A DNA stretch of 37,855 nucleotides. It comes from Longimicrobium sp. Lineage in GTDB: Bacteria; Gemmatimonadota; Gemmatimonadetes; Longimicrobiales; Longimicrobiaceae. A model generated the notes under the pieces. The model saw only the letters and a list, made by a program, of their open reading frames with translations. It searched no databases and had not been told where the DNA came from. Positions 3,340-37,047 of the stretch are shown one piece after another (positions within the stretch are counted from its first letter, which is position 1; the number at the start of each line of letters is the position of its first letter). The position numbers and the translations under genes are program-made. The stretch is from contig NZ_DATIND010000032.1 of the NCBI RefSeq assembly GCF_035474595.1, positions 1-37,855 of the forward strand, read 5' to 3'.

Positions 3340-3708
3340 GTGAGCGGGCGCGAGTGGCTGGTCGAGGCGCACGGCTGCCGTCCGGCGGCGCTGGCGGACC
3401 TGGCCACGCTGCGGGCGCTGTTCGCGCGCATGGTCGGCGAGCTGGGGCTGCACCCCGTGGCCGAGCCGCAGTGGCACCAGTTCCCCGGCCCCGGCGGCAT
3501 CACCGGGCTGTGCCTGCTGGCCGAGAGCCACTGGTCGGTGCACACCTTTCCCGAGCACGGCTCGCTCTGCCTGGACCTGTTCTGCTGCGTCCCCCGGCCG
3601 GAGTGGAACTACGAGGCGCGCCTGGGCGAGCTGTTCGGCGCCACCGGGGTGGTGGTGCGCGCGGTGGAGCGTCCGTACGCCGCCGTGCCGGCCGGGAGCG
3701 CCGCGTGA
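3340..3708 (+). CDS. speD: Small prokaryotic-type S-adenosylmethionine decarboxylase proenzyme
   Basis: Pyruvoyl-dependent enzyme that decarboxylates AdoMet to give the aminopropyl donor for polyamine synthesis; cytoplasmic. The signature is LLAESHWSVHTFPEHG followed by LDLFCC. Self-cleavage should occur between Glu and Ser, converting the Ser (codon 3526-3528) to pyruvate. The His of VHT and a Cys of FCC match the catalytic His and Cys of the short bacterial class. Starting at GTG 3340 gives 122 residues, the usual family length, with GGAG at 3325-3328 upstream. An in-frame ATG at 3244 would add 32 low-complexity residues and is less likely. The stop overlaps the next start by 4 bases (GTGA), so the two genes are translationally coupled. 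No ornithine or arginine decarboxylase lies nearby, so the amine acceptor is unknown. Confidence 0.88.
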   Translation: MSGREWLVEAHGCRPAALADLATLRALFARMVGELGLHPVAEPQWHQFPGPGGITGLCLLAESHWSVHTFPEHGSLCLDLFCCVPRPEWNYEARLGELFGATGVVVRAVERPYAAVPAGSAA

Positions 3709-5591
3709 CGCGCGCCACCGCCTCGTGCCCCAGCTGCGGCGCGCCGGTGGAGTTCGTCTCGGCCGCCAGCGTGCAGACCACCTGCCGCTACTGCACCTCG
3801 GTGCTGGTGCGCACCGACCTGGACCTGCGCGCCGTGGGCGTGAAGTCCACCGTGCCGCCTTCCGTCTCGCCCATCCGGCTGGGCACGCGCGGCTCGGACG
3901 GGGGCCGCCGCTTCCAGGTGGTGGGCCGGCTGGTGTACGCGTACGAGCGCGGCCGCTGGAACGAGTGGCACCTGGCGTACGACGACGGCGGCACCGGCTG
4001 GCTCTCCGACGCGCAGGCCGAGTACGCCATCACGGCGCAGGTGCCCTCCGCGCCGGTCCCCACCGCGGACCAGGCGCGCCCGGGGACGAAGGTGACCGTC
4101 GGCGGCGAGCCCTACACGGTGGGCTCGCTCACGCGGGCGCGCTACGCCGGCACCGAGGGCGAGCTGCCGTTCGAGCGGTGGGAGCCCGGGGAGATGAGCT
4201 TCGCCGACCTGCGCGGCGAGGGCGGCCGCTTCGCCACCCTCGACTACAGCGAGAACCCCCCGCTGCTGTTCGCCGGGCGGTGGGTGGCGTTCGACGACCT
4301 GGCGCTCTCGGAGCTGCGCGAGCCCGAGGAGGTGAAGGCCGCGGCGCTGACGGTGGCGTGCCCCAACTGCGGCGGCAGCGTCACCGTGCACGCCGCCGGC
4401 CTCACCGTGAGCGTGGTGTGCGCGCACTGCCGGTCGGTGCTCGACGCGCGGAGCAGCGCCTTCAAGGTGCTGCAGACGTACCACGCGCGGCTGGAGCACA
4501 CGCCGAAGATCCCGCTCGGCACGCCGGGAACGCTGAACGGCCGGGCGTGGGAGGTGATCGGCTTCCAGGTGCGCTCCATCCGCGTGGAGGGGCGAGACTA
4601 TCCGTGGGACGAGTACCTGCTCTTCTCGCCGCGCTACGGCTTCTGCTATCTCACCGAGTACCAGGGGCACTGGAACCGCGGCGAGACCATCCGCGGCGTT
4701 CCCCGCACGGTGACGGCGGGGATGCGGCCGGCGGCCGAGCTGGACGGGCGCGTCTTCCGGCACTTCCAGCGGGCGAAGGCGGAGACGACGTTCGTCCTGG
4801 GCGAGTTCCCGTGGGAGGTGCGGGCGGGCGACCGGGCGAAGGTGAGCGACTTCGTGGCGCCGCCGTACATGCTCTCGTCGGAGGAGACGGAGGGCGAGAC
4901 CACGTGGACGCTCTCGGAGTACGTTCCCGGCGCGGCGGTGTGGAAGGCGTTCGGGATGAAGGGCTCGCCGCCTTCGCCGCGCGGCGTGTACGCCAACGAG
5001 CCCGCGCCGGCCACCGGGGTGCGGGGGAAGTGGGCCGCGGCCCTGGCGATGCTGGCGCTGCTGGTGGCGCTCGCCATGGTGCACTACTCCGCGGGCGGCG
5101 GCACGGTCGGCACCCCGCACCGCTACGGCTTCGACCCGCTCACGCCGCAGGAGCAGCAGGCGCAGGTGATCGGGCCGCTGGTGCTGGGCGGGCGCACCAG
5201 CAACGTGGAGGTCGACGTCGAGGCCGTGCTGAACAACAGCTGGGCGTACTTCGACCTGTCGCTGGCCGACTCGGCCGGGCAGGCCACGCAGTTCGGCAAG
5301 GAAGTGAGCTACTACCAGGGCGTGGAAGACGGCGAGCGGTGGAGCGAGGGCTCGCCGCGCGGAAGCGTGCGCGTTCCCAGCGTGCCGCCGGGACGCTACT
5401 GGCTGCGCGTGGAGCCGCAGGGCGAGCTGCCGTACAGCTACGAGGTGAAGGTGCGCCGCGACGTACCCATGGGGTGGATGTACCTGGTCGCCGCGCTCCT
5501 CCTCCTCCTTCCGCCCGGGCTGGCCACGCTGCGCTCGGGGCTCTTCGAGACGCAGCGCTGGGCCGAGAGCGACTACGCGCCCAACGACTGA
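3705..5591 (+). CDS. Double-DUF4178 zinc-ribbon membrane protein
   Basis: A 628-residue protein starting at GTG 3705 inside the speD stop. An N-terminal zinc ribbon (C8, C11, C27, C30) leads into a first DUF4178 unit (about 60-205). A second zinc ribbon begins at C219 and leads into a second DUF4178 unit (about 255-400). A hydrophobic segment lies at about 442-462, then a roughly 125-residue domain probably on the far side of the membrane, then a second hydrophobic segment at about 590-612 and a short tail. DUF4178 has no established biochemical role, but it is commonly found beside speD, DUF350 and membrane-type spermidine synthase genes, as here. A membrane-associated accessory or scaffold for the polyamine-type module is inference. 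The duplicated ribbon-plus-DUF4178 layout suggests internal duplication. Confidence 0.85.
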   Translation: MTRATASCPSCGAPVEFVSAASVQTTCRYCTSVLVRTDLDLRAVGVKSTVPPSVSPIRLGTRGSDGGRRFQVVGRLVYAYERGRWNEWHLAYDDGGTGWLSDAQAEYAITAQVPSAPVPTADQARPGTKVTVGGEPYTVGSLTRARYAGTEGELPFERWEPGEMSFADLRGEGGRFATLDYSENPPLLFAGRWVAFDDLALSELREPEEVKAAALTVACPNCGGSVTVHAAGLTVSVVCAHCRSVLDARSSAFKVLQTYHARLEHTPKIPLGTPGTLNGRAWEVIGFQVRSIRVEGRDYPWDEYLLFSPRYGFCYLTEYQGHWNRGETIRGVPRTVTAGMRPAAELDGRVFRHFQRAKAETTFVLGEFPWEVRAGDRAKVSDFVAPPYMLSSEETEGETTWTLSEYVPGAAVWKAFGMKGSPPSPRGVYANEPAPATGVRGKWAAALAMLALLVALAMVHYSAGGGTVGTPHRYGFDPLTPQEQQAQVIGPLVLGGRTSNVEVDVEAVLNNSWAYFDLSLADSAGQATQFGKEVSYYQGVEDGERWSEGSPRGSVRVPSVPPGRYWLRVEPQGELPYSYEVKVRRDVPMGWMYLVAALLLLLPPGLATLRSGLFETQRWAESDYAPND

Positions 5592-5633: not shown

Positions 5634-5787
5634 AGTCCCAAGTCCCAAGTCCTAAGTGCCAAGTGACAATTGCAAAGAGTTAGAGATCCGGAGACTCGGG
5701 GCTCAGGACGCAGCACTCAGCACTCAGCACTCAGCACTCAGCACTCAGCACTTAGGACTTAGGACTTAGGACTTAGGACTTAGGACT
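5634..5787. repeat. Heptamer tandem arrays in opposing orientation
   Basis: Five AGTCCCA/AGTCCTA/AGTGCCA-type heptamers occupy 5634-5668. After a 42-base spacer, about five GCACTCA units and six GCACTTA/GGACTTA units occupy 5711-5787. The second array is largely the complement of the first (GGACTTA is the reverse complement of TAAGTCC), so the arms could pair into a long imperfect hairpin. It sits between the DUF4178 gene and the next small gene. Related arrays occur at 25840-25927, 33200-33250 and 34673-34760. Confidence 0.85.
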
Positions 5788-5820
5788 TTCGGCTCGATTC
5801 ACCTCCCACCACGAATTCGC

Positions 5821-6015
5821 ATGCTGCGTGGAGTGCGCGGGTACCTGCTGTACGGGGCCACGGTGCTGTCGCTGCTGGGGTGGGCGGAGTACCGCGGCTG
5901 GTCGCCGTTCGGGCCGCCGCGGCCGGGCGCCGCGGGGCCGCGCTCGGTGCGCGACAACCCCGGCGCGTACCGGCCGCACTACTCCGGCTCGGGGCGCTAC
6001 GTGGGGGGCAAATGA
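5821..6015 (+). CDS. Small single-pass membrane protein of the polyamine-type cluster
   Basis: A 64-residue protein. Residues about 8-24 form one hydrophobic helix. The tail is rich in Gly, Pro and Arg and ends SVRDNPGAYRPHY then GRYVGGK. The conserved-looking tail and its place between DUF4178 and DUF350 genes support a real gene. I recognise no named domain. The ribosome site is weak. The stop is 13 bases before the DUF350 start, so they are probably co-transcribed. A small membrane subunit acting with the DUF350 protein is inference. Confidence 0.7.
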   Translation: MLRGVRGYLLYGATVLSLLGWAEYRGWSPFGPPRPGAAGPRSVRDNPGAYRPHYSGSGRYVGGK

Positions 6016-6028
6016 CAACGGGAGGCGC

Positions 6029-6238
6029 ATGGACGACCTGATGCAGCACCTGGTGGCGGCGCTCGTTTACGCGCTGCTGGGGATCGTGATCTTCGTGGTC
6101 GCGTTCGTGGTCGTGGACCGGCTCACGCCCGGATCGCTGTGGAAGGAGATCATCGACGAGCACAACACGGCGCTGGCGGTGATGATGGGCGCCATCTCCA
6201 TCGGCATCTCCATCATCATCGCGGCGGCCATCTGGTAG
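6029..6238 (+). CDS. DUF350 family small membrane protein
   Basis: A 69-residue protein with two membrane helices (about 8-30 and 46-68) joined by a short polar loop containing WKEIIDEHN. This matches one DUF350 unit; longer family members such as YjfL carry two. GGGAGG ends three bases before the ATG, a rather tight spacing. DUF350 proteins are integral inner-membrane proteins of unknown activity that recur beside polyamine-related genes and stress-linked operons. Its function here is not known. A role in anchoring or transport for the neighbouring SpeE-like enzyme is inference. Confidence 0.85.
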   Translation: MDDLMQHLVAALVYALLGIVIFVVAFVVVDRLTPGSLWKEIIDEHNTALAVMMGAISIGISIIIAAAIW

Positions 6239-6249
6239 AGCCGGCCGAG

Positions 6250-7779
6250 GTGGACGCGGGTCCACGGGGCGGCGGCGGGCGGGGCGTGCAGGTGGCGCTC
6301 TTCCTGACCGTGCTGCTGATCGCCGCCTGCGGGCTGGTGTACGAGCTGGTGGCCGGCGCGCTCAGCAGCTACCTGCTGGGCGACAGCGTCACCCAGTTCT
6401 CCACCGTCATCGGCACCTACCTCTTCGCCATGGGCGTGGGGAGCCACCTGTCGCGCTACGTCACGCGCGGGCTGGCGTGGCGCTTCGTCACCGTGGAGCT
6501 GATGGTGGCGGTGGTGGGCGGCTTCTCGGCCACGGCGCTCTTCCTGGCCTTCGCCTGGACCGACGCCTTCCGCCTGGTGCTGTACGCGCTGGTGATTGTG
6601 ATCGGCGCGCTGGTGGGGCTGGAGATCCCGCTGCTGATGCGCATCCTGCGCAACCGCTACGACTTCAAGGACGTGGTGGCCAACGTCCTGACCTTCGACT
6701 ACCTGGGCGCGCTGGGCGCCTCGCTCCTCTTCCCCATCCTCCTCGTCCCCCGCCTGGGGATGGTGCGCTCGGCGCTGGCGTTCGGGGTGGTGAACGCGCT
6801 GGTGGCGCTGTGGAGCACGCACCTCTTCCGCGACTCGCTTCCCCGCCGCCGCACGCTGCAGGCGCTGTGCGCGGCGGCGCTCGTCGTGCTGGGCACGGGC
6901 GTCTGGGCCGCGGAGAAGATCACGCGCTCGGCCGAGGCCGACATCTACGCCGACCCGGTGGTCTTCTCCCGCGACTCGCGCTACCAGCGCATCGTGCTCA
7001 CCGCCTTCCACGACGACCTGCGGCTCTTCCTGAACGGCCACCTGCAGTTCAGCTCGCGCGACGAGTACCGCTACCACGAGGCGCTGGTGCACCCGGGGCT
7101 CGCCGCGCTTCTGGGCGCGCGCCGCGTGCTGGTCCTGGGCGGCGGCGACGGGCTGGCGGTGCGCGAGATCCTGCGCTACCCCGGAGTCTCGGTCACGCTG
7201 GTGGACCTGGACCCGGAGATGACGCACATCTTCCGCACCAACCGCACGCTGGTGGGGCTGAACCGCGGCTCGCTGAACTCGCCGCGCGTGCGCGTGATCA
7301 ACGCCGACGCGTTCGTGTGGCTGGGGTCGAACCGCGAGATGTTCGACTTCGTGGTGGTCGACTTTCCCGATCCCAGCAACTACGCGGTCGGGAAGCTGTA
7401 CACCACCGCCTTCTACCGCGCGCTGCAGACGCATCTTTCCCGCGACGGGCTGGTGGTGGTCCAGAGCACGTCGCCCATGTTCGCGCGCACCGCGTTCTGG
7501 AGCATCGAGCGCACGCTGCACGCGTCGGGGCTGCGCACCTGGCCCTACCATCTCTACGTGCCGTCGTTCGGCGAGTGGGGGTTCGTGATGGCCGGCCGCG
7601 GCGATTACACGCTTCCCACCGCGCTGCCGTCCGGGCTGCGCTTCCTGACGCTCTCCTCCCTCGCCCCCCTCTTCCAGTTCCCCGCCGACCTGCAGCCGGT
7701 GCCCGCCGAGGCCAACCGGCTCGACGACCAGGCGCTCGTGCGCTACTACGGCGACGAGTGGAAGCAGATCGAGCGGTGA
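6250..7779 (+). CDS. speE: Membrane-domain spermidine synthase (polyamine aminopropyltransferase)
   Basis: Transfers an aminopropyl group from decarboxylated AdoMet to an amine acceptor. About 200 N-terminal residues form roughly seven membrane helices, followed by a soluble spermidine-synthase domain (about 235-505). Motifs seen are LNGHLQFSSRDEYRYHE, the nucleotide-binding VLVLGGGDG (about 293-301), the acidic VDLDPE, and VDFPDP with Asp371 and Asp374, equivalent to the catalytic DxxDP. Start choice is between GTG 6250 (11 bases after the DUF350 stop) and GTG 6286, which begins directly at the first helix; neither has a strong ribosome site. Membrane-fused SpeE proteins are a known subgroup but their acceptors are mostly untested. 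With speD upstream, the pair supplies and uses the donor. Confidence 0.88.
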   Translation: MDAGPRGGGGRGVQVALFLTVLLIAACGLVYELVAGALSSYLLGDSVTQFSTVIGTYLFAMGVGSHLSRYVTRGLAWRFVTVELMVAVVGGFSATALFLAFAWTDAFRLVLYALVIVIGALVGLEIPLLMRILRNRYDFKDVVANVLTFDYLGALGASLLFPILLVPRLGMVRSALAFGVVNALVALWSTHLFRDSLPRRRTLQALCAAALVVLGTGVWAAEKITRSAEADIYADPVVFSRDSRYQRIVLTAFHDDLRLFLNGHLQFSSRDEYRYHEALVHPGLAALLGARRVLVLGGGDGLAVREILRYPGVSVTLVDLDPEMTHIFRTNRTLVGLNRGSLNSPRVRVINADAFVWLGSNREMFDFVVVDFPDPSNYAVGKLYTTAFYRALQTHLSRDGLVVVQSTSPMFARTAFWSIERTLHASGLRTWPYHLYVPSFGEWGFVMAGRGDYTLPTALPSGLRFLTLSSLAPLFQFPADLQPVPAEANRLDDQALVRYYGDEWKQIER

Positions 7780-14871: not shown

Positions 14872-18137
<3,266 letters not shown>

Positions 18138-18141
<4 letters not shown>

Positions 18142-20573
18142 AGATGCAGCCGAGAAAGAAGCGGCGGGCGGAAGACATCGAGACCTACGCCCAGGACATC
18201 GTGAACACGGTGCGCGAGCCGCTGCTGATGCTGGACACCACGCTGCGCGTGCGGAGCGCCAACCGCGCCTTCTACCAGACCTTCCGGGTCTCGGCCGAGG
18301 AGACCGAGGACCGCCTGATCTACGAGCTGGGCAACGGCCAGTGGGACATCCCGGCGCTGCGCACCCTGCTCGAGGACGTGATCCCCACCAGCTCGGTGTT
18401 CAACGACTTCGAGCTGGAGCACACCTTTCCGCTCATCGGGCGCCGGGTGATGCTGCTGAACGGCCGCCGGCTGCGCGCGGGGAGCCACGCCGAGCTGCTG
18501 GTGCTGGCCATGGAGGACGTGACCGAGCGGCGCCAGGCCGAGGCCGACTTCCAGGCCGTCGAAACCTACGCGCAGGACATCGTCGACACGGTGCGCGAGC
18601 CGCTCCTGATCCTGGACCCGGCGCTGCGCGTGCGCTCGGCCAACCGCGCCTTCTACCAGACCTTCCACGTCACGCCCGGCGAAACGGAAGACCGGCTGAT
18701 CTACGAGCTGGGCAACGGCCAGTGGGACATCCCGGCGCTGCGCACCCTGCTCGAGGACATCATCCCGGCGAGCTCGGTATTCAGCGACTTCGAGCTGGAG
18801 CACACCTTTCCGCTCATCGGACGCCGGGTGATGCTGCTGAACGCCCGCACCCTGCAGGCGGGGAGCCACGCCGAGCTGCTGGTGCTGGCCATGGAGGACG
18901 TGACCGAGCGGCGCCACGCCGAGGGCGAGGTGGGCAAGGCGCGCGAGGCCGCCGAGGCGGCCAACCGCACCAAGAGCCTGTTCCTGGCCAACATGAGCCA
19001 CGAGCTGCGCACCCCGCTGAACGCCATCCTGGGGTACTCCGAGATGCTGGCCGAGGAGGCGGCGGAGCAGAGGCTCGAAGCATTCGGGGCCGACCTGGAG
19101 AAGATCGGCGCCGCCGGGCGCCACCTGCTGGCGCTGATCAACGACATCCTGGACCTGTCCAAGATCGAGGCCGGGAAGATGGAGATGTTCCTGGAAACCT
19201 TCGACGTGGCCGAGATGATCGGCGAGGTGGCGTCCACCATCCGCCCGCTGGTCGAGGAGAACGCCAACGCGCTGGACATCGACCTGGCACCGGACCTGGG
19301 CGCCGTTTACGCCGACCAGATGAAGGTGCGCCAGATCCTCTTCAACCTCCTGTCCAACGCCGTGAAGTTCACCCGCGACGGCCGCATCACGGTGAACGGC
19401 GGGCGCGAGCGGATGGACGGGAGCGAGTGGATCGTGGTGCGCGTGGCCGACACCGGCATCGGGCTGAGCGCGGACCAGCTGGTGAAGCTGTTCAAGGACT
19501 TTACCCAGGCCGACGCCTCCACCACGCGCAAGTTCGGCGGCACCGGGCTGGGGCTGGCGCTCACGCGGCGCTTCTGCCAGATGATGGGCGGCGACGTCAC
19601 GGTGCACAGCGTGGCGGACGAGGGAAGCGTCTTCACCGTCAAGCTTCCCGTGGTGGTCACCCAGACCGCCCCCGACCTCCCCGCCGACGGCGGCTGCCCC
19701 GCGCCCCCCGGCGCCGGCGCCGTCCCCGCTTCCGGCTGGGCGGGCGCCGACGGCGCCGAGGCCGCGCCGGGGTGCGTGCTGGTGATCGACGACGACCCGG
19801 TGCAGCGCGACCTGATGGAGCGCTTCCTGAGCCGCGAGGGGTTCTGCGTGCGCACCGCCTGCGGCGGCGAGGAGGGGCTGCGCCTGGCCCGGCGGATGCA
19901 CCCGGTGGCCATCACCCTGGACGTGATGATGCCGGGGATGGACGGCTGGAGCGTGCTCACCGCGCTGAAGTCCGACGCGGCGCTGCGCGAGATCCCCGTG
20001 ATCATGCTGACCATGGTCGACGACCCCGAGCGCGGCTTCACCCTGGGCGCCGCCGACTACGCCACCAAGCCGGTGAACCGCCAGCGCCTGTCCAGGATCC
20101 TGCGCAAGCACACCTGCCCCGACCCGCCCTGCCCGGTGCTGGTGGTCGAGGACGACCCCGCCACGCGGGCGATGACGCGCTCCATCCTGGAGAAGGAGGG
20201 GTGGAAGGTGAGCGAGGCCCCGAACGGGCGCGTGGCCCTGGAGATGATGGAGAGCGAGCGCCCCCGCCTGATCCTGCTGGACCTGATGATGCCGGAGATG
20301 GACGGCTTCGAGTTCGCCGACCGGGTGCGCCGCCACCCCGAGTGGCGCTCCATCCCCATCGTGGTGGTCACCGCCCGCGACCTGAGCTTCGAGGAGCGCC
20401 GCCGGCTGAGCGGCTACGTGGAAACCATCCTGCAGAAGGAGGGCGACACGCGCGAGATGCTGCTGCGCCAGGTGAGCGACCGGCTGAACGACCTGGCCGC
20501 GCCGCGCGCCGCCACCCCCGACCCGGAGAGAGGTGAAGGGCGCGCGCCGCGCGCCCTTCAGCCCGTGCCATGA
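18138..20573 (+). CDS. Hybrid histidine kinase with duplicated PAS domain and two receivers
   Basis: An 811-residue protein. Two almost identical PAS units (about 15-141 and 142-262) repeat every 127 residues; each ends VLAMEDVTERR. The kinase follows with H-box MSHELRTPLNAIL (His288) and ATPase boxes LLSNAVKF, DTGIGLS and GGTGLGLALTRRF. After a Pro/Gly/Ala linker come receiver 1 (VIDDDP, phospho-Asp595 in LDVMMPGMDG) and receiver 2 (VVEDDP, phospho-Asp715 in LDLMMPEMDGF). Receiver 2 lacks the typical K-P after its last strand and reads ILQKEGD, as seen in some divergent receivers. ATG 18138 overlaps the preceding stop; ATG 18144 has better spacing from GGAGAGGG. No membrane helix is present. 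Confidence 0.92.
18180..18923 (+). repeat. In-frame tandem duplication encoding two PAS units (381-bp period)
   Basis: The stretch from GAGACCTACGC at 18180 recurs at 18561 as GAAACCTACGC, an offset of 381 bases or 127 codons, and stays similar to about 18923. The encoded units share long identical runs such as RLIYELGNGQWDIPALRTLL and FELEHTFPLIGRRVMLLN. Many differences are at third positions, as expected for duplication followed by selection or conversion. Confidence 0.9.
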
Positions 20574-22778: not shown

Positions 22779-23044
22779 GGAGCTGGTCCTCCGTGTCCTT
22801 GGTGAGAGCGCTTGCAGGGGGCGATGGGACGGGGCGCGAAAGGCCGCCGCGGGGTGGACGAAATCCGGAATTTTCGCTAGATTGCATGGCTGTTCTGCGC
22901 AGGCGGGCACCTCGGCGAGAGGCGCCCGTCTTCGCTTTGAGAAAATTCGGAATCGAAGAAACGCGAGTCCGAGGACGTGCGGCGGGGCACGAACGGCCAC
23001 CAACGGGCCGTCCCCTGTCCCCTGTACCCTGTCCCCTTGGAAAT

Positions 23045-25839: not shown

Positions 25840-25927
25840 CAGGGGACAGGGGACAGGGCAGGACCTGCCACTCAGCACTCAGCACTCAGCACTCAGCACT
25901 CAGCACTCCCGCACTCCCGCACTCCCC
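25840..25927. repeat. Mixed heptamer/octamer tandem arrays before fmdB
   Basis: Three GGGGACA-type heptamers (25840-25860) are followed by about five CACTCAG heptamers and then CACTCCCG octamers to 25927. The first unit is the complement of the TGTCCCC units before typA (23012-23038). The CACTCAG units match those at 5711-5750. Confidence 0.8.
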
Positions 25928-30984: not shown

Positions 30985-31017
30985 GCGGGCGAGGGGCGAC
31001 CTTCGCCCGCGCGTTTT
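30985..31017 (+). terminator. Terminator-like hairpin after the barrel-protein gene
   Basis: GCGGGCGAG (30985-30993) pairs with TTCGCCCGC (31002-31010) using one G-T pair, around an 8-base loop, followed by GCGTTTT. Confidence 0.55.
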
Positions 31018-31072
31018 CGGAGTCCGTAACCGGAAGGCATCATACCGGATTCGGAGATTGATCGTGCAATCC

Positions 31073-31192
31073 GACAGCACACGTGCGACCTCGCCTATAG
31101 ATCCTTCGGCCTGCAACCGCGCGTGTGGGGGCAACGACGGCGTGGTCGGCCTCAGGATGACGTCTCTCTGTGCGTTTGGAATGCACAGGTGA
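31073..31192 (+). repeat. Family-2 dispersed element, diverged copy
   Basis: Contains CACACGTGCGACCTCGCC, GATCCTTCGGCCTGCAA and GGTCGGCCTCAGGATGACGTC in the same order as the 128-bp copies. It then continues into CTCTGTGCGTTTGGAATGC, the flank also seen (reverse complement) near 2660-2690 and 22452-22470. Confidence 0.7.
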
Positions 31193-31206
31193 TTGCTAGA
31201 TCCGAT

Positions 31207-31268
31207 ATCACACGGAGGAAACGGAGGGAACGGAGATACAGAGCAGTTCTCCGTTTCCTCCGTGTGAT
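31207..31268. repeat. Perfect 20-bp inverted repeat
   Basis: Left arm 31207-31226 (ATCACACGGAGG, then AAACGGAG) and right arm 31249-31268 (CTCCGTTTCC, then TCCGTGTGAT) are exact reverse complements around a 22-base loop that itself contains AACGGAG. A related CGGAGG/AACGGAG stretch occurs at 9788-9816. No T-tract follows. Confidence 0.85.
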
Positions 31269-31300
31269 ACGAAAATCCGGAGAAGGATCGGTACATCCTG

Positions 31301-31428
31301 CCGACTCACGTGCTGCCGCGCCCACAGATCCTTCGGCCTGCAAAGGGTTGGGATGATGCGAGTTGCGGTGTGGCCGGCCTCAGGATGACGTCGGGCGGGT
31401 GCAGTGCGGATGCAGAAGCCGATCTCCC
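31301..31428 (+). repeat. 128-bp family-2 dispersed element, copy 2
   Basis: Matches 22651-22778 across its length: CGACTCACGTGC, CCCACAGATCCTTCGGCCTG, GATGCGAGTTG, GGTGTGGCCGGCCTCAGGAT and GAAGCCGATCTCCC. It ends 18 bases before ribD. Confidence 0.8.
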
Positions 31429-31446
31429 CGGTTTGGTACGAGAATC

Positions 31447-32541
31447 ATGAGTGAGCGTCCCGAGGACCGCGAATGGATGCGCCGCGCGCTGGCCCTGGCG
31501 CCGCGTGGGTGGGGCCGCACCGCGCCCAACCCGATGGTCGGCTGCGTCCTGGTCCGCGACGGCGCCGTCGTCGGCGAGGGATGGCACACGGAGTACGGCC
31601 AGCCGCACGCCGAGGTCGAGGCGCTGCGCGCGGCGGGCGATGCGGCCCGCGGCGCGACGGCCTACGTGACGCTTGAGCCCTGCTCGCACTTCGGGAAGAC
31701 GCCGCCGTGCACCGACGGCCTGCTCGCCGCCGGGGTGCGGCGCGTCGTGTTCGCGGCGCACGATCCCAACCCGAAGGCGTCCGGCGGCGGCGAGGTGCTG
31801 CGCGCGGCGGGGATCGACGTCACCGGCGGCGTGGAGGAGCAGGCGGCGCGCGACCAGAACGCCGTCTTCTTCCACGCGCACTCGGCGGCGGGGGATGCGC
31901 GGCCGTTCGTCGCGCTGAAGCTGGCGCTGTCGCTGGATGCGCGCATCGCCGACCGCGACGGACGCTCGGTGTGGATCACGGGCGAGGAGGCGCGGGTGGA
32001 GACGCATCGCCTGCGCGCGGGGTTCGACGCGGTCGCGGTCGGCGTCGGCACCGTGCTGGCCGACGATCCGCTGCTGACGGCGCGCGGCTCCGTCATCCCC
32101 CGCATCCCCCCCGCCCGCGTGGTGCTGGACCGCGCGCTGCGGCTGCCGGTCGATTCCAATCTCGTCCGCACGGCGCACGAGGTGCCGGTCATCGCCATCG
32201 CGAGGGCGGATGCGCCGAAGGAGCGGCAGCGGGCGCTGGAGGGGGCCGGCGTGCGCGTCCTGACGTCCGGCGACGGCGTCGAACGGACGCTCGAAACGTT
32301 GCGGGAGGCGGGGATTCGGTCCATGTTCGTGGAAGGCGGCGCCGAAATCGCGGGATCGCTGCTGCGCGCGGGGCTCGTGGACCGGCTCCACCTCTTCTAC
32401 GCGCCGGTCTTCCTGGGCCCCGACGGGCTGAGCCCCTTCGCCGCGCTGGAGAGCCCGGCGATCACGGAGGCGCCGCGCTGGAGGCGGGTGGAGACGGAGA
32501 GCTTCGGCGCCGACACGCTGGTCACGCTCGCACGGGAGTAG
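31447..32541 (+). CDS. ribD: Bifunctional riboflavin deaminase/reductase
   Basis: A 364-residue enzyme for the second and third steps of riboflavin synthesis: deamination of the pyrimidine, then NADPH reduction of the ribosyl group. The deaminase domain (about 1-145) has zinc ligands His54 and catalytic Glu56 in HAEVEAL, Cys79 in EPCSHFGKTPPC and Cys88. The reductase domain (about 150-360) has LKLALSLDARIAD and FVEGGAEIAGSLL. It is the first gene of the riboflavin operon and directly follows a repeat element. The ribosome site is weak. Confidence 0.96.
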   Translation: MSERPEDREWMRRALALAPRGWGRTAPNPMVGCVLVRDGAVVGEGWHTEYGQPHAEVEALRAAGDAARGATAYVTLEPCSHFGKTPPCTDGLLAAGVRRVVFAAHDPNPKASGGGEVLRAAGIDVTGGVEEQAARDQNAVFFHAHSAAGDARPFVALKLALSLDARIADRDGRSVWITGEEARVETHRLRAGFDAVAVGVGTVLADDPLLTARGSVIPRIPPARVVLDRALRLPVDSNLVRTAHEVPVIAIARADAPKERQRALEGAGVRVLTSGDGVERTLETLREAGIRSMFVEGGAEIAGSLLRAGLVDRLHLFYAPVFLGPDGLSPFAALESPAITEAPRWRRVETESFGADTLVTLARE

Positions 32542-32543
32542 GG

Positions 32544-33197
32544 GTGTTCACGGGGATCGTGGTAGAGGTCGGCACCATCCAGGACGTGCGCGAGGAAGGC
32601 AACGGCGTCGTCTGCACCATTTCCTGCCAGGCGGTGCTGGACGGGCTGGGGCTGGGCGACAGCGTGGCCATCGACGGCGCCTGCCTGACGGTGACGTCGA
32701 TCCTGGACCACGCCTTCACCGTGCAGGCGGTGGGGACCACGCTGGGACGGACGACGTTCGGGGGATTCGAGGCCGGGCGGCGGGTGAACCTGGAGCGCGC
32801 GCTCTCGCTCGGCCAGCGCCTCGGCGGGCACATCGTGCAGGGCCACGTGGACGGATTGGGAGAGGTGATCTCCATCCGCCGCGAGGAAGAGCTGGTGCTG
32901 ATCGACTTCCGCATGCCCGCGGACGTGGCGTCGGTCACGGTGCTGCACGGCTCCATCACGCTGAACGGCATCTCGCTCACGGTGAACGCGCTCCCGGCGC
33001 CCGACGTCTGCCAGGTGTCCATCATCCCCTTCACCTGGGAGCACACGAATCTCGCGGAGCTGAGCGAGGGCGACGCGGTGAACCTGGAGGGCGACACCAT
33101 CGGCAAGTACGTGCGCCACCTGCTGGGGATGCCGGCCGCGCAGTCCATCGGCGGCGCGGCCGAGCCGGAGCACGTGATGAAGGCGTGGGGGTACTGA
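32544..33197 (+). CDS. ribE: Riboflavin synthase, alpha subunit
   Basis: A 217-residue enzyme that dismutates two 6,7-dimethyl-8-ribityllumazine molecules to riboflavin. Two lumazine-binding repeats are visible: the first begins FTGIVVEVG and contains GDSVAIDGACLTV, the second contains GGHIVQGHVDG and GSITLNGISLTV. The start is GTG 32544, two bases after the ribD stop, with GGGAG upstream; this gives the conserved M-F-T-G-I-V N terminus. A short C-terminal tail after KYVRHLLG is slightly longer than usual. Confidence 0.96.
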   Translation: MFTGIVVEVGTIQDVREEGNGVVCTISCQAVLDGLGLGDSVAIDGACLTVTSILDHAFTVQAVGTTLGRTTFGGFEAGRRVNLERALSLGQRLGGHIVQGHVDGLGEVISIRREEELVLIDFRMPADVASVTVLHGSITLNGISLTVNALPAPDVCQVSIIPFTWEHTNLAELSEGDAVNLEGDTIGKYVRHLLGMPAAQSIGGAAEPEHVMKAWGY

Positions 33198-33199
33198 AA

Positions 33200-33306
33200 A
33201 GAAGTGCTAAGTGCTAAGTGCTAAGTGCCAAGTGCCAAGTGCTAAGTGCTGCGGTTGAAGTCCGCGAAGGCGGACTGCGTGCCGTTGTAGCCGCGAGTTT
33301 ACTCGC
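33200..33306. repeat. AGTGCTA/AGTGCCA heptamers plus two small palindromes, inside the rib operon
   Basis: About six AGTGCTA or AGTGCCA heptamers run from 33206 to 33250. They are followed by AGTCCGC-GAAG-GCGGACT (33259-33276), a perfect stem with a GAAG loop, and GCGAGT-TT-ACTCGC (33293-33306). The block sits between ribE and ribBA. A short open frame across it is not supported as a gene. Confidence 0.75.
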
Positions 33307-33428
33307 ATTTTCGTCGGTAACACTCGCATTTTTGCCGGAAATCGCGCCGTTGGTCGGATTCGGCGGGTTGATCGTACCTGCACTGATCGAGCGTATCGGC
33401 GGTTCGAGCGTATAGAAGGAGGGAGACG

Positions 33429-34667
33429 ATGCCGTTCGACACGGTCGAGGCCGCGATCGAGGACATCCGGAACGGGAAGATGGTGATCGTGGCCGACGAC
33501 GAGAACCGCGAGAACGAGGGCGACCTCGTCTGCGCCGCGGAGCTCGTGACGCCGGAGATCATCAACTTCATGGCCACGCACGCGCGCGGCCTGATCTGCC
33601 TGGCGCTGACCGCGGAGCGCGCGGACGAGCTGGACCTGCGCCTGATGACCGACCACAACACCGAGGCGCTGGGCACCGCCTTCACCGTGTCGGTGGACGC
33701 GGCGCACCGCTTCGGCGTGACCACGGGGATCAGCGCCAGCGACCGCGCCACCACCATCCGCGTGGCCATGGACCCGGCCAGCGTCCCCGGCGACCTGCGC
33801 CGCCCGGGCCACGTCTTTCCGCTGCGCGCGCGCCCCGGCGGCGTGCTGCGGCGCGTGGGGCAGACCGAGGCCTCGGTGGACCTCGCCCGCCTGGCGGGGC
33901 TGAAGCCCGGCGGCGTGATCTGCGAGATCATGAACGAGGACGGCACCATGGCGCGCCGGCCGCAGCTGGAGGAGTTCGCGGCCCGTTACGGCATCCGCTT
34001 CATCACTGTGGCCCAGATCGTCGCGTACCGCCTGCAGCGCGAGCGGCTGGTGCGGCGCGCGGCCGAGGCCATCATCCCCACCCCGTCGGGCGAGTGGCGC
34101 ATCATCGCCTACCACAACGACGTGGACCAGTTCGAGCACGTGGCGATGGTGAAGGGCGAGGTGGAGGGGGTGGACGGCGTGCTGGTGCGCATGCACAGCG
34201 AGTGCCTGACCGGCGACGTGTTCCACTCGCTGCGCTGCGACTGCGGCGAGCAGCTGGACGCCGCCATGCGCAAGATCGACGAGGAGGGGCGCGGCGCCAT
34301 CGTCTACCTGCGCCAGGAGGGGCGGGGGATCGGGCTGGTGAACAAGCTGCGCGCCTACAACCTGCAGGACCAGGGGATGGACACGGTGGAGGCCAACGAG
34401 AAGCTGGGCTTCCGCCCCGACCTGCGCGACTACGGAATCGGCGCGCAGATCCTGCTGGACCTGGGGCTCCGGAACATCCGCATCCTGACCAACAACCCCA
34501 AGAAGATCGTGGGGATCGACGGATACGGCCTGTCGGTGCTGGAGCAGGTGCCGCTCGGCGTGAAGCCGAACCCGCACAACAGCGGCTACCTGCGCGCCAA
34601 GCGCGACAAGATGGGCCACCTCTTCCCGGTGGACGGGGAGGAGCAGCTGGACGAGCAGGCGGCATGA
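33429..34667 (+). CDS. ribBA: Bifunctional DHBP synthase / GTP cyclohydrolase II
   Basis: A 412-residue fusion. The N-terminal DHBP synthase (about 1-200) makes dihydroxybutanone phosphate from ribulose 5-phosphate; it shows [23 protein letters not shown] and [13 protein letters not shown]. The usual R-x-G-H-T-E-A metal-binding motif reads [12 protein letters not shown] here, with Gln where most family members have the ligand His. The C-terminal GTP cyclohydrolase II (about 205-400) has [10 protein letters not shown] and [10 protein letters not shown] zinc Cys residues, and RQEGRGIGL and GYGL, all intact. AAGGAGGG lies six bases before the ATG, the strongest ribosome site in the operon. The His-to-Gln change may lower or abolish the first activity, or be a lineage variant. 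Confidence 0.95.
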
Positions 34668-34672
34668 ACAGA

Positions 34673-34760
34673 AGTGCGTGAGTGCGGAAGTGCGGAAGTG
34701 CGCTGGCTCCGCTCGAATCCGACGCACTCACGCACTCACGCACTCACGCACTCACGCACT
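34673..34760. repeat. Octamer arrays forming an inverted repeat between ribBA and ribH
   Basis: The left arm carries AGTGCGTGAGTGCG (34673-34686) followed by AGTGCGGA-type units. The right arm has about four GCACTCAC octamers ending CGCACTCACGCACT (34747-34760), which exactly complements the left end. The message could fold here into a long hairpin that ends 9 bases before the ribH start. Confidence 0.85.
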
Positions 34761-34769
34761 TTCTTTCCG

Positions 34770-35252
34770 ATGATCGAGCACGCGGGGCACTTCCGGGGTG
34801 ACGGGCGGCGGTTCGGGATCGTCGTGGCCCGCTTCAACGACTTCATCACGCGGCCGCTGCTGGCGGGCGCGCGCGACTGCCTGCTGCGCCACGGCGTGGC
34901 GGACGACAACATCGAGGCGGCCTGGGTGCCCGGGGCGTGGGAGATCCCGGGGACGCTCGCCGTCCTCGCCGCCAGCGGGCGCTTCGACGCGCTGATCGCG
35001 CTGGGATGCGTGATCCGCGGGGCCACGCCGCACTTCGACTACGTGGCCGGGCACGCCGCCAGCGGCACCGCCGCGGTCGCCGCGGCCCACGACCTGCCGG
35101 TGATCTTCGGCGTGCTCACGACGGACACGATCGAGCAGGCCATCGAGCGCGCCGGCACCAAGGCCGGGAACAAGGGGTGGGACAGCGCCCTTGCCGCGCT
35201 GGAGATGGCCGACCTGTACGCCACGCTGAAGAACGGGGAGAAGGCCGGGTGA
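34770..35252 (+). CDS. ribH: 6,7-dimethyl-8-ribityllumazine synthase
   Basis: A 160-residue enzyme that joins the pyrimidine diamine and dihydroxybutanone phosphate. Motifs: [43 protein letters not shown] (the catalytic His precedes FDY) and [22 protein letters not shown]. The start at ATG 34770 gives the family N terminus. A frame extension upstream is only repeat DNA. No good ribosome site is seen, and the hairpin-forming repeat immediately upstream may affect translation. The stop overlaps nusB by 4 bases. Confidence 0.96.
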
Positions 35253-35686
35253 GAAGCCGCAGCAAGGCCCGAGGGTGGGCGCTCCAGGGGCTCTACGCGT
35301 GGGAGAGCCGCGGCGGGCAGCCCGAAGACGCGATGCGCATCCTGCAGACGCTCTTCTCCACCCTGCGCGTGTCGCCGGCCAACCGGCCGTACGCCGAGGT
35401 GCTGGTCCGCCTGGTGGCCACCAACCTGGAGCGCATCGACGCGCTGGTGCTGGAGGCGCTCACCAACTGGCGGATGGAGCGCCTGGCGGCCATCGACCGC
35501 AACGTGCTGCGCCTGGGCGTGGCCGAGATGCTGTTCGTGGACGACGTGGCGCCCCGCATCACCATCCGCGAGATGGTGCAGCTGGCGGAGAAGTACGGGA
35601 CCCACGACAGCCCGCGCTTCGTGAACGGCGTGCTCGACGCGGTGATGCGCCGGGTCGCGCCGGAAGGGGCCGCGCCGGCGCGGTGA
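35249..35686 (+). CDS. nusB: Transcription antitermination factor NusB
   Basis: A 145-residue all-helical RNA-binding protein that acts with NusE (S10) in rRNA antitermination. Seen are the Arg-rich N terminus ([18 protein letters not shown]), the [23 protein letters not shown] region, and the C-terminal signature [15 protein letters not shown] then [13 protein letters not shown]. Start GTG 35249 overlaps the ribH stop. The ribH-nusB order is widespread in bacteria. Confidence 0.95.
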
Positions 35687-36795
35687 AGCTCCTCGTCATC
35701 AACTGGCAGGACCTGGCCAACCCGCACTCCGGCGGCGCCGAGGTCCACCTGCACGAGATCTTCGGCCGGCTGGCGCGGCGCGGGCACGGCGTCACCCTCC
35801 TCTGCTCCGGCTTCCCCGGCGCCTCGCCGGCGGACGAGGCGGACGGGATGCGGATCCACCGCACCGGCGGCCGGCACACCTTCACGCTGGCAGCCGCGCC
35901 GTTCTACCGCCGTCATCTCGCCGCGGAACGCTTCGACGCCGTCGTCGAGGACCTGAACAAGATCCCGCTCTTCACGCCGTACTGGGTCGAGCGCCCGCTC
36001 GCCCTGCTCGTCCACCACCTCTTCGGCACCACCGCCTTCCGCGAGGCCTCGGCTCCGTTCGCCGCGGCCACCTGGATGCTCGAGCGCCCCATCCCCCTCG
36101 TCTACCGCGGGCTACCCGCCGAAGCCGTCTCGGAGAGCACGCGCGACGACCTGGTCGCGCGGGGACTCAGGCGGCAGGACATCCGCGTGATCCACAACGG
36201 CGTGGACGTGGATTTCTTCCGCCCCGATCCATCCATCTCCCGCGACGCGGAGCCCACCTTCCTCTCCGTCGGCAGATTGAAGAAGTACAAGCGGATCGAC
36301 CACGCGATCGAGGCCGTGGCGCGTCTCAGGGCGCGCAACCGCTTCGTGCGGCTGGTGATCGCGGGGAAGGGGGATGACGAGCCGCGGCTCCGCGAGACCG
36401 TCGCCCGCCTGGGCGTGGGGGATCGCGTGACCTTCGCGGGATTCGTGACGGAGGAGGGGAAGCGCGACCTGATGCGGCGCGCGTGGGCGACCGTGCAGCC
36501 GTCGCCCAAGGAAGGGTGGGGGATCACCAACATCGAGGCCGCCGCCTGCGGCACGCCGACCATCGCCAGCGACTCGCCCGGCCTGCGCGAGTCCGTGGTC
36601 CACAACACCACGGGGCTCCTCTACCCTCACGGCGACGTCGCCGCGCTGGCGGACGCGCTGGAGCGGCTGGCGATGGACGAGGTCGAGGTCGCGCGGCTGG
36701 GCGCGGGCGCGCATCAGTTCGCGCAGGGCTTCACCTGGGACCGCGCCGCCGACCTCACCGAGGCGCACCTGGCGGAGGTCGCCGCAAGCCGCTGA
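35683..36795 (+). CDS. GT4-family glycosyltransferase
   Basis: A 370-residue GT-B fold transferase starting at GTG 35683, inside the nusB stop. The N-terminal domain contains NWQDLANPHSGGAEVHLHE, with the glycine-rich loop of GT4 enzymes. The C-terminal domain has VIHNGVDVDFF, SVGRLKKYKRIDHAIEA and the E-x7-E motif in PKEGWGITNIEAAACGTP, which binds the nucleotide sugar. No signal peptide. The donor and acceptor are unknown; cell-envelope or exopolysaccharide glycan is usual for such genes. Coupling to nusB is positional and does not indicate function. Confidence 0.9.
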   Translation: MKLLVINWQDLANPHSGGAEVHLHEIFGRLARRGHGVTLLCSGFPGASPADEADGMRIHRTGGRHTFTLAAAPFYRRHLAAERFDAVVEDLNKIPLFTPYWVERPLALLVHHLFGTTAFREASAPFAAATWMLERPIPLVYRGLPAEAVSESTRDDLVARGLRRQDIRVIHNGVDVDFFRPDPSISRDAEPTFLSVGRLKKYKRIDHAIEAVARLRARNRFVRLVIAGKGDDEPRLRETVARLGVGDRVTFAGFVTEEGKRDLMRRAWATVQPSPKEGWGITNIEAAACGTPTIASDSPGLRESVVHNTTGLLYPHGDVAALADALERLAMDEVEVARLGAGAHQFAQGFTWDRAADLTEAHLAEVAASR

Positions 36796-37047
36796 CGAAA
36801 GACCGGGTTCGATCGATACGGTTCGGTGCAGCTTCCGTTGGAATGCACTCTTTTGTTTCCGGAACATTCCTTCCGGGCTGAATGGACGGGGAGTTTCAAG
36901 TAGTCGATCTGCATCAAGTTAGATCATCATCACCTCGACGTACGCGTGTGGCACCGGGCGTGCCTTGATGGCGCGGAAACCCCAAATCTGCAACGGCTCC
37001 GCATCACCTGTCCGGGGCCGCCACCCATCCGCGTCTCGAGGATCGTC

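Follow-up and report, generated by a model that had tools for sequence, protein, structure and literature searches.

We find that the short tandem arrays in this DNA (the window, meaning the whole stretch of 37,855 nt that was analysed) are members of a genome-wide family of repeats that abuts gene ends with a single polarity. The reading we favor, to which we give a probability of roughly 55%, is that they are palindromic repeats, dispersed and non-autonomous, which settle where two genes meet and whose stems are remodeled by slippage and by exchange between copies. In full form the element would be 5'-(RAGTGCY)n - loop - (RGCACTY)n-3', with stems of 7- or 8-bp tandem units, and single arrays would be one-armed or decayed copies of it.

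An earlier note on this DNA had pointed to four arrays with related units, and all four (A1 to A4) are present where it placed them. The units reduce to RAGTSCY at period 7 and RAGTGCGN at period 8, with the exception of CAGGGGA in A2, which is a separate unit. The arrays of the window are:

5634 to 5664, plus strand: A1 left arm, period 7, units AAGTCCC, AAGTCCT and AAGTGCC, 42 nt past the stop of a DUF4178 gene (3705-5591)
5711 to 5788, minus strand: A1 right arm, period 7, built from AGTGCTG and AAGTCCT units read as reverse complement; it converges with the left arm
23010 to 23037, minus strand: an extra array of GTCCCCT units (period 7), whose minus strand is G-rich and which stops 7 nt short of the start of a typA/BipA-like gene (23045)
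25840 to 25858, plus strand: A2 G-rich array, period 7, CAGGGGA
25869 to 25908, minus strand: A2 period-7 array, CACTCAG, which is AGTGCTG on the minus strand
25903 to 25926, minus strand: A2 period-8 array, GCACTCCC, which reads RAGTGCGG on the minus strand and is fused with the A2 period-7 array
33202 to 33250, plus strand: A3, a single period-7 arm, AAGTGCT/C, 4 nt past the ribE stop (33197)
about 34671 to 34703, plus strand: A4 left arm, period 8, AAGTGCGN, 4 nt past the ribBA stop (34667)
34704 to 34721, no strand: A4 loop, similar to those of further period-8 hairpins elsewhere in this genome
34722 to 34761, minus strand: A4 right arm, period 8, NCGCACTT, ending 8 nt ahead of the ribH start (34770)

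As the note had suggested, two of these arrays have opposed arms that fold as long hairpins, A1 with dG -58.2 (z -5.4 against dinucleotide shuffles) and A4 with dG -58.7 (z -8.5). A3 is one arm only (z -2.2), and A2 shows no fold beyond its dinucleotide shuffles (z +0.9). Pfam assignments also agree with the note that two arrays sit between riboflavin genes: the order is ribD (31477-32541), ribE (32544-33197), A3, ribBA (33429-34667), A4 and ribH (34770-35252). The claimed positions inside operons are supported too. A1 follows the DUF4178 gene (stop 5591) and lies ahead of a spermine-synthase-domain gene (6286-7779); A2 is ahead of a zinc-ribbon gene (26012). The exclusion of CRISPR stands: judged from the repeats, these are 7-8 bp units without spacers, whereas CRISPR repeats are about 20-50 bp long and separated by unique spacers. 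An Rfam search of the window returned no match above the gathering score. Three further observations concern the surroundings of the arrays. The gene after A1 (5821-6238) is spread over two frames, about 5821-6015 and 6029-6238, with a DUF350 match in the second, and is either frameshifted or two short genes. Adjoining A3, at 33256-33320, is another dispersed repeat, AAGTCCGCGAAGGCGGACT..., with about 96-98% identity at dozens of places in the same genome. Finally, a large ORF (18128-20536) contains a 381-bp tandem duplication (18178-18928; 2 copies, 89% matches).

A genome-wide count of units, which the note had proposed as a check, reveals how common the family is. The three-unit pattern AGTSCYRAGTSCYRAGTSCY has 1261 matches (656 + 605) in its own 6.57-Mb genome and the same pattern read backwards has 24 (8 + 16), so the arrays are not a product of chance. 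The detailed census covers 986,582 bp of this genome, window included, in which a home-made simple codon model called 791 genes (coding fraction 0.76; stops exact, starts approximate). Counting perfect arrays of at least three units, with arms set by regular expressions so that mutated units are missed, we find 57 arrays of period 7 (55 intergenic), 42 of period 8 (all 42 intergenic) and at most 9 for any other period from 2 to 15. The period-7 and period-8 arrays, 97 of 99 of them intergenic, use only 22 unit types. In all, 120 array clusters were catalogued with their context. There is also a second period-8 family, GATCTCACGCGGAGACGCGGAGACGCGGAGG (for example at 4386-4448 of contig C24), which nearly always has 3 units and fixed flanks; its 40 arms in the sample include one perfect inverted pair and are mostly not adjacent to a stop.

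The arms are strongly oriented with respect to the genes around them. We considered the 131 intergenic arms that have a gene to either side, leaving out 3 coding arms and 10 at contig edges. For 110 of them, the closer of the two genes is the one that lies 5' of the RAGTGC strand (binomial p = 9e-16). This is so whether that gene's stop faces the arm (65 of 70, or 65:5) or its start does (45 of 61, or 45:16), and at both periods (48/56 for period 7, 62/75 for period 8). A same-strand stop lies no more than 20 nt behind the arm in 56 of 70 cases, compared with a mean of 6.8 and a maximum of 15 in 200 draws of random placement within the same gaps. Where a co-directional gap holds both arms (n = 29), the distance on the stop side is mostly 1-12 nt and on the start side mostly 5-111 nt. 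The arms are oriented relative to each other as well: neighboring arms within 150 bp and with no gene between them are convergent in 29 cases, divergent in none and point the same way in 6 (29, 0 and 4 at a cut of 120 bp), and pairs 150-500 bp apart with no gene between are convergent in 8 cases and divergent in 1. At the level of the unit, period-7 arms usually have A as the first letter of unit 1 (50 of 61), which is not so for unit 2 (30 of 61).

These regularities bear on two simpler explanations. The note had listed slippage as a possible common origin, and one could imagine that slippage in situ is all there is, with a chance seed near a stop expanding under a polymerase that favors 7-8 nt and with no mobility of the repeat. 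The dominance of periods 7 and 8 fits this picture, as does the account, given in part of the text of PMC4679880, that in many bacteria no long repeat is commoner than the heptad and that a polymerase footprint was proposed for heptads (Mrazek 2007). However, slippage by itself does not predict a single polarity (29 convergent, 0 divergent), abutment of gene ends, related loops among dispersed copies or one heptad in several phyla; we therefore keep it as one source of array length and regard it as quite unlikely to be the whole explanation. The second is that the arrays are bidirectional intrinsic terminators of unusual build, as strong hairpins past stop codons would suggest, along with outer flanks that are A-richer on the arm strand (AAAA in 13%, versus 1% in other intergenic DNA). 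Against this, the U-tract directly after the hairpin is mostly absent (TTTT in 3 of 29 co-directional two-arm gaps, at least 4 T in eight nt in 6 of 29), and scanning 31000-36900 for terminators gave no call within the rib arrays. Moreover, the share of gaps (at least 60 bp) that hold arms is 65/364 for tandem, 12/86 for convergent and 10/89 for divergent gaps, so convergent gaps are not preferred. We rejected the terminator reading, whose probability we take to be very small.

We now turn to the internal structure of the hairpins. Both arms come from one unit family in 33 of 37 hairpins, where 18.6 are expected and 0 of 20,000 shuffles did as well. Within a family, true partners pair no better than shuffled ones (p = 0.50 for 18 period-7 hairpins and 0.86 for 15 period-8 hairpins), and thus nothing in the home genome points to selection for pairing at single bases. 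Symmetry of the outer flanks, used as a test of template switching, was not significant (p = 0.096 and 0.058), and from these two results together it follows that copying from arm to arm is not demonstrated. The loops of dispersed copies are related: several period-8 hairpins in the sample have a palindromic loop of the form GTGCG-CTGG...CCAG-CGCAC or a variant of it, and in a sequence search with the rib region the A4 hairpin including its loop matched many places in the genus at 80-93% identity. Many arrays are single arms. As read from the units, the AGTGCGGG variants are the only period-8 units that contain GGG, and RAGTSCY has no GG or GGG run.

Convergent arms of one family (33/37) amount to the terminal inverted repeats of a MITE. 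The target-site duplication of a MITE was not found: the string common to a hairpin's own flanks shows no direct-repeat excess in the home genome (G000; 3.46 versus 3.49 permuted, 37 hairpins) or in G305 (4.06 versus 4.09, 17 hairpins). At ribBA-ribH, ATGA does flank the insert on both sides in G000, in G300 and, by eye, in G208, though the required stop and start force much of this; of the gaps in the genome sample, 1 of 29 with a hairpin and 5 of 350 plain ones have ATGA at both ends.

The history of individual arrays can be followed at orthologous junctions in relatives, using ten genomes of the genus and G052, G006 and G208 from other genera. Between ribBA and ribH, four species of the genus (G251, G273, G299 and G301) have no array and a stop that overlaps the start as ATGA, and the same ATGA overlap is found in the outgroup genera G052 and G006; G224 and G243 have array-free gaps of a few tens of bases. 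In G000 and G300, period-8 hairpins with differing linkers and loops stand between stop and start, and in G180 and G032 arrays lie within longer gaps. An array also follows ribBA in G286, where the next gene is another one, and G208 has different G-rich/C-rich repeat arms in a like arrangement (by eye). The search obtained no ribBA-ribH ortholog from G298. At the A1 junction, stop and start touch or overlap in G032 and G180, where G000 has its period-7 hairpin; in G251 (L127), an intergenic insert of 0.6 kb carries GGGGAAT heptads where it meets each of the two genes. G301 has other repeats and a short heptad run ahead of the start, and other repeats again occupy the junction in G300 and G286. 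The 0.6-kb insert contains several further repeat-like palindromes.

Because the outgroups have ATGA junctions and dispersed copies have loops in common, we infer that the arrays arrived by copy-and-paste insertion. Loss, with the ATGA overlap restored, is compatible with the species tree as an alternative. Absence from close relatives had been raised in the note as an outcome that, with no effect on expression, would be consistent with neutral slippage; such absence holds for the ribBA-ribH array in the four close species just described, and more broadly in that three-unit counts in the genus run from 0 to 1261.

At the junction between ribE and ribBA, five sister species have hairpins with differing stems: G251 (period 7, AAGTGCT/AAGTCCT, z -4.1), G299 (period 7, degenerate, z -1.7), G301 (period 7, AGTGCCT, z -6.6), G286 (period 7, AGTGCCC, z -4.6) and G273, in which the stem is of period 8 (z -6.9). 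G251 and G273 are 96.1% identical in ribBA DNA, yet their stems differ in period. By eye, G251, G299 and G301 seem to have related loops, and in G251, G299, G273 and G301 the left arm appears to include the stop codon of ribE. Elsewhere, G000 has one arm, G300 a hairpin of unrelated sequence, and G180 and G032 longer array-free DNA; in G180 (L098) this gap holds an ORF resembling a beta-lactamase-type serine hydrolase, and in G032 (L099) there is a shorter remnant (by eye). Only 3 of the 48 orthologous junction sets found in the stretches compared have at least 4 units in some member, namely ribBA-ribH, the A1 junction and ribE-ribBA. We consider exchange between copies the probable cause of this stem turnover.

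The same junction also provides evidence for the main rival, which is that the arrays are functional RNA hairpins that protect the 3' end of the upstream mRNA or set the ratio of upstream to downstream gene expression, so that any stem that pairs will do. Such a function is possible at some operon junctions; as an explanation of the family it is tentative, and we would bet against it. Five species keep a hairpin between ribE and ribBA while its stem differs, the own-species pairing of arms ranks 4th of 120 permutations by duplex energy, and arms abut stop codons. On the other hand, 2 of the 5 left arms pair better with the right arm of another species, fine-scale co-variation of the arms is absent in the home genome, the ribBA-ribH array is absent in the four close species, and arms also abut starts and occur in divergent gaps, in the proportions given above (45/61 and 10/89). 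We infer that any effect of the arrays on RNA is secondary and that they have no main function.

How far does the family extend? In the phylum sample the three-unit pattern is present in 9 of 298 genomes and 4 of 119 genera, and six genus genomes have 1261, 678, 313, 85, 2 and 0 matches. Period-8 matches are found in 10 of 10 genus genomes, ranging from 4 to 1021, with reversed controls that are sizeable in some of them (for example 227 versus 141 in G273). The two periods vary independently, G251 having 678 matches of period 7 and 34 of period 8, and G180 having 0 and 286. Outside the phylum, an exact 27-mer of the heptad occurs in at least 119 stretches of a species-level collection; among the 80 matches listed, 42 are from Cyanobacteria, 10 from Chlorobiaceae, 10 from Acidobacteriota, 8 from Chloroflexota, 3 from Planctomycetota and 7 from others, where phyla are read from record titles, some records are MAGs and several loci come from one genome. 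The 27-mer was also found in 3 stretches of viral contigs. All 20 genomes chosen from the hits, and thus picked for having a match, contain the pattern in 2 to 826 copies; reversed controls are low in most, and about equal or larger in two (3 and 2 copies). The arrays of the window are therefore not a one-off, as the heptad recurs in distant bacterial groups.

In 119 of the 27-mer loci, 50 of 157 arms have the stop of a same-strand ORF within 25 nt on the 5' side, versus 4 for a mirrored control, and adjacent arms are convergent in 11 cases, divergent in 0 and same-way in 13; the first unit of these loci is not evidence because the search pattern was chosen to begin with AAGTGC. At 20 places in one Acidobacteriota genome, picked from its matches, most are dispersed nested palindromes with purine-rich ends, heptad arms, a common AATTTGGAACTGAAGAACTTC arm and then loops of varying length. 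A bolder and unlikely reading of this breadth is that there is one cross-phylum kind of stem-rewriting palindrome, with a putative activity that builds or copies gene-end hairpins from 7-8 nt units. The purine-rich strand would then always lead away from the gene, and the whole stem, both arms and even the period included, would be replaced within a few percent of divergence. If true, the placement rule would reflect the machinery and not the sequence, as units that obey one rule differ widely: RAGTGCY here, GGGGAAT at the A1 junction of G251, the G-rich arms of G208 and GGGAATC in Xanthomonas.

The note had also suggested protein-binding arrays, to which one may add DNA-uptake signals, both built on an AAGTGC(GG) core. 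The AGTGC core is constant in period-8 units and in many period-7 units, and the period-8 unit resembles the Haemophilus uptake core AAGTGCGGT. However, single copies of AAGTGCGG occur at expectation in coding DNA (21 versus 20.9 expected) and intergenic DNA (8 versus 8.5). The lack of enrichment leaves the protein-binding proposal unsupported and led us to reject an uptake sequence (USS/DUS); we consider either highly improbable.

Returning to dispersed palindromic repeats, we looked for a gene that might mobilize them. RAYT genes (PF01797) are present in 9 of 10 genus genomes, and at 3 of the 6 RAYT places of the home genome that were inspected (two on contig C39, one on C46) the arrays do not flank them, with no period-7/8 arms of the family in the 20-kb and 3.3-kb stretches around these genes; the RAYT link was rejected at these places, and no mobilizing gene was found. 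A repeat similar to AAGTCCGCGAAGGCGGACT... also adjoins the RAYT genes on C39. Looking for autonomous copies, in which convergent arms would enclose a gene, we obtained five candidate intervals shorter than 4 kb.

In the mechanism that we propose, an element would settle at gene junctions, even those without intergenic DNA. Its outer ends would then abut the stop codon and, with some room, the next start; that arrays abut genes would thus reflect a gap that was tiny before the element arrived, and that they have one polarity only would reflect a polarity and loop that belong to the element itself. After settling, slippage would alter the number of units. Exchange with other copies, or copying from arm to arm, would swap stems, which would explain why both arms are of one family even as their exact pairing drifts. 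Copies within operons would be transcribed as strong RNA hairpins that are tolerated or mildly modulatory and are not the cause of spread.

Literature searches found no paper on Longimicrobium and tandem repeats (a weak result, as most subscription papers are outside the coverage), none for GAGTGCTGAGTGCTGAG (coverage again incomplete), and in broader searches nothing on these repeats in titles or the openings of abstracts. Within the coverage of these searches, what seems to be new is the unit, its period-8 partner, its occurrence in this genus, its wide spread among phyla and the finding that stems are replaced as a whole at a single junction in sister species. Copy numbers in the genus range from 0 to 1261 per genome and stems at one operon junction differ between sister species, which makes the genus a practical system for studying how repeats move, how fast they are rewritten and whether they affect operon expression.

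Among known systems, REP/REPIN sequences are likewise short dispersed extragenic palindromes without a gene of their own; unlike the case of REP/REPIN, the RAYT genes inspected here adjoin other repeats and not these arrays. REP stems are not known to consist of tandem 7-8 bp units. The short tandemly repeated repetitive (STRR) heptads are arrays in filamentous cyanobacteria, and matches to the heptad described here include filamentous genera such as Nostoc and Calothrix. The TAACTGA heptads of Beggiatoaceae, Cyanobacteria and Bacteroidetes are, in the part of MacGregor 2015 (PMC4679880) used here, intergenic and patchy across phyla, mostly ahead of start codons and with inverted pairs in 1 of 170 sets; our arrays share the intergenic heptads and the patchy spread, and differ in placement and in forming convergent pairs.

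Closest in geometry are the GGGAATC/GGGGAYT heptads of Xanthomonas and Nostoc, a type of bacterial repeat that has received little study. As described in part of the text of Rehm et al. 2015 (PMC4692102), these are intergenic repeats of period 7 with the 5' end near a gene in either gene orientation, so that the coding strand lies close past stops and the non-coding strand ahead of starts, and in Xanthomonas they occur as convergent pairs, of which Xcc has 70 and Xac 75; the gene-end polarity was reported there with G-quadruplexes in mind. The arrays described here are also dispersed intergenic 7-bp tandem units (55/57) with the 5' end nearer the gene, whichever its orientation, and with convergent inverted pairs (29/0/6). 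They differ in having a period-8 relative, changes of stem and period between sister species and members in several phyla, and in that RAGTSCY, read from the units alone, has no G-tracts for a quadruplex. Because RAGTSCY has no G-run, a G-quadruplex cannot explain placement here. That the polarity is also seen in another phylum, at an additional period and for a unit lacking G-tracts argues against a general explanation by quadruplexes and directs attention to the way such repeats originate or the places that tolerate them. Sharing this geometry and lacking the G-tracts, the arrays are therefore a variant of that kind and not the same repeat.
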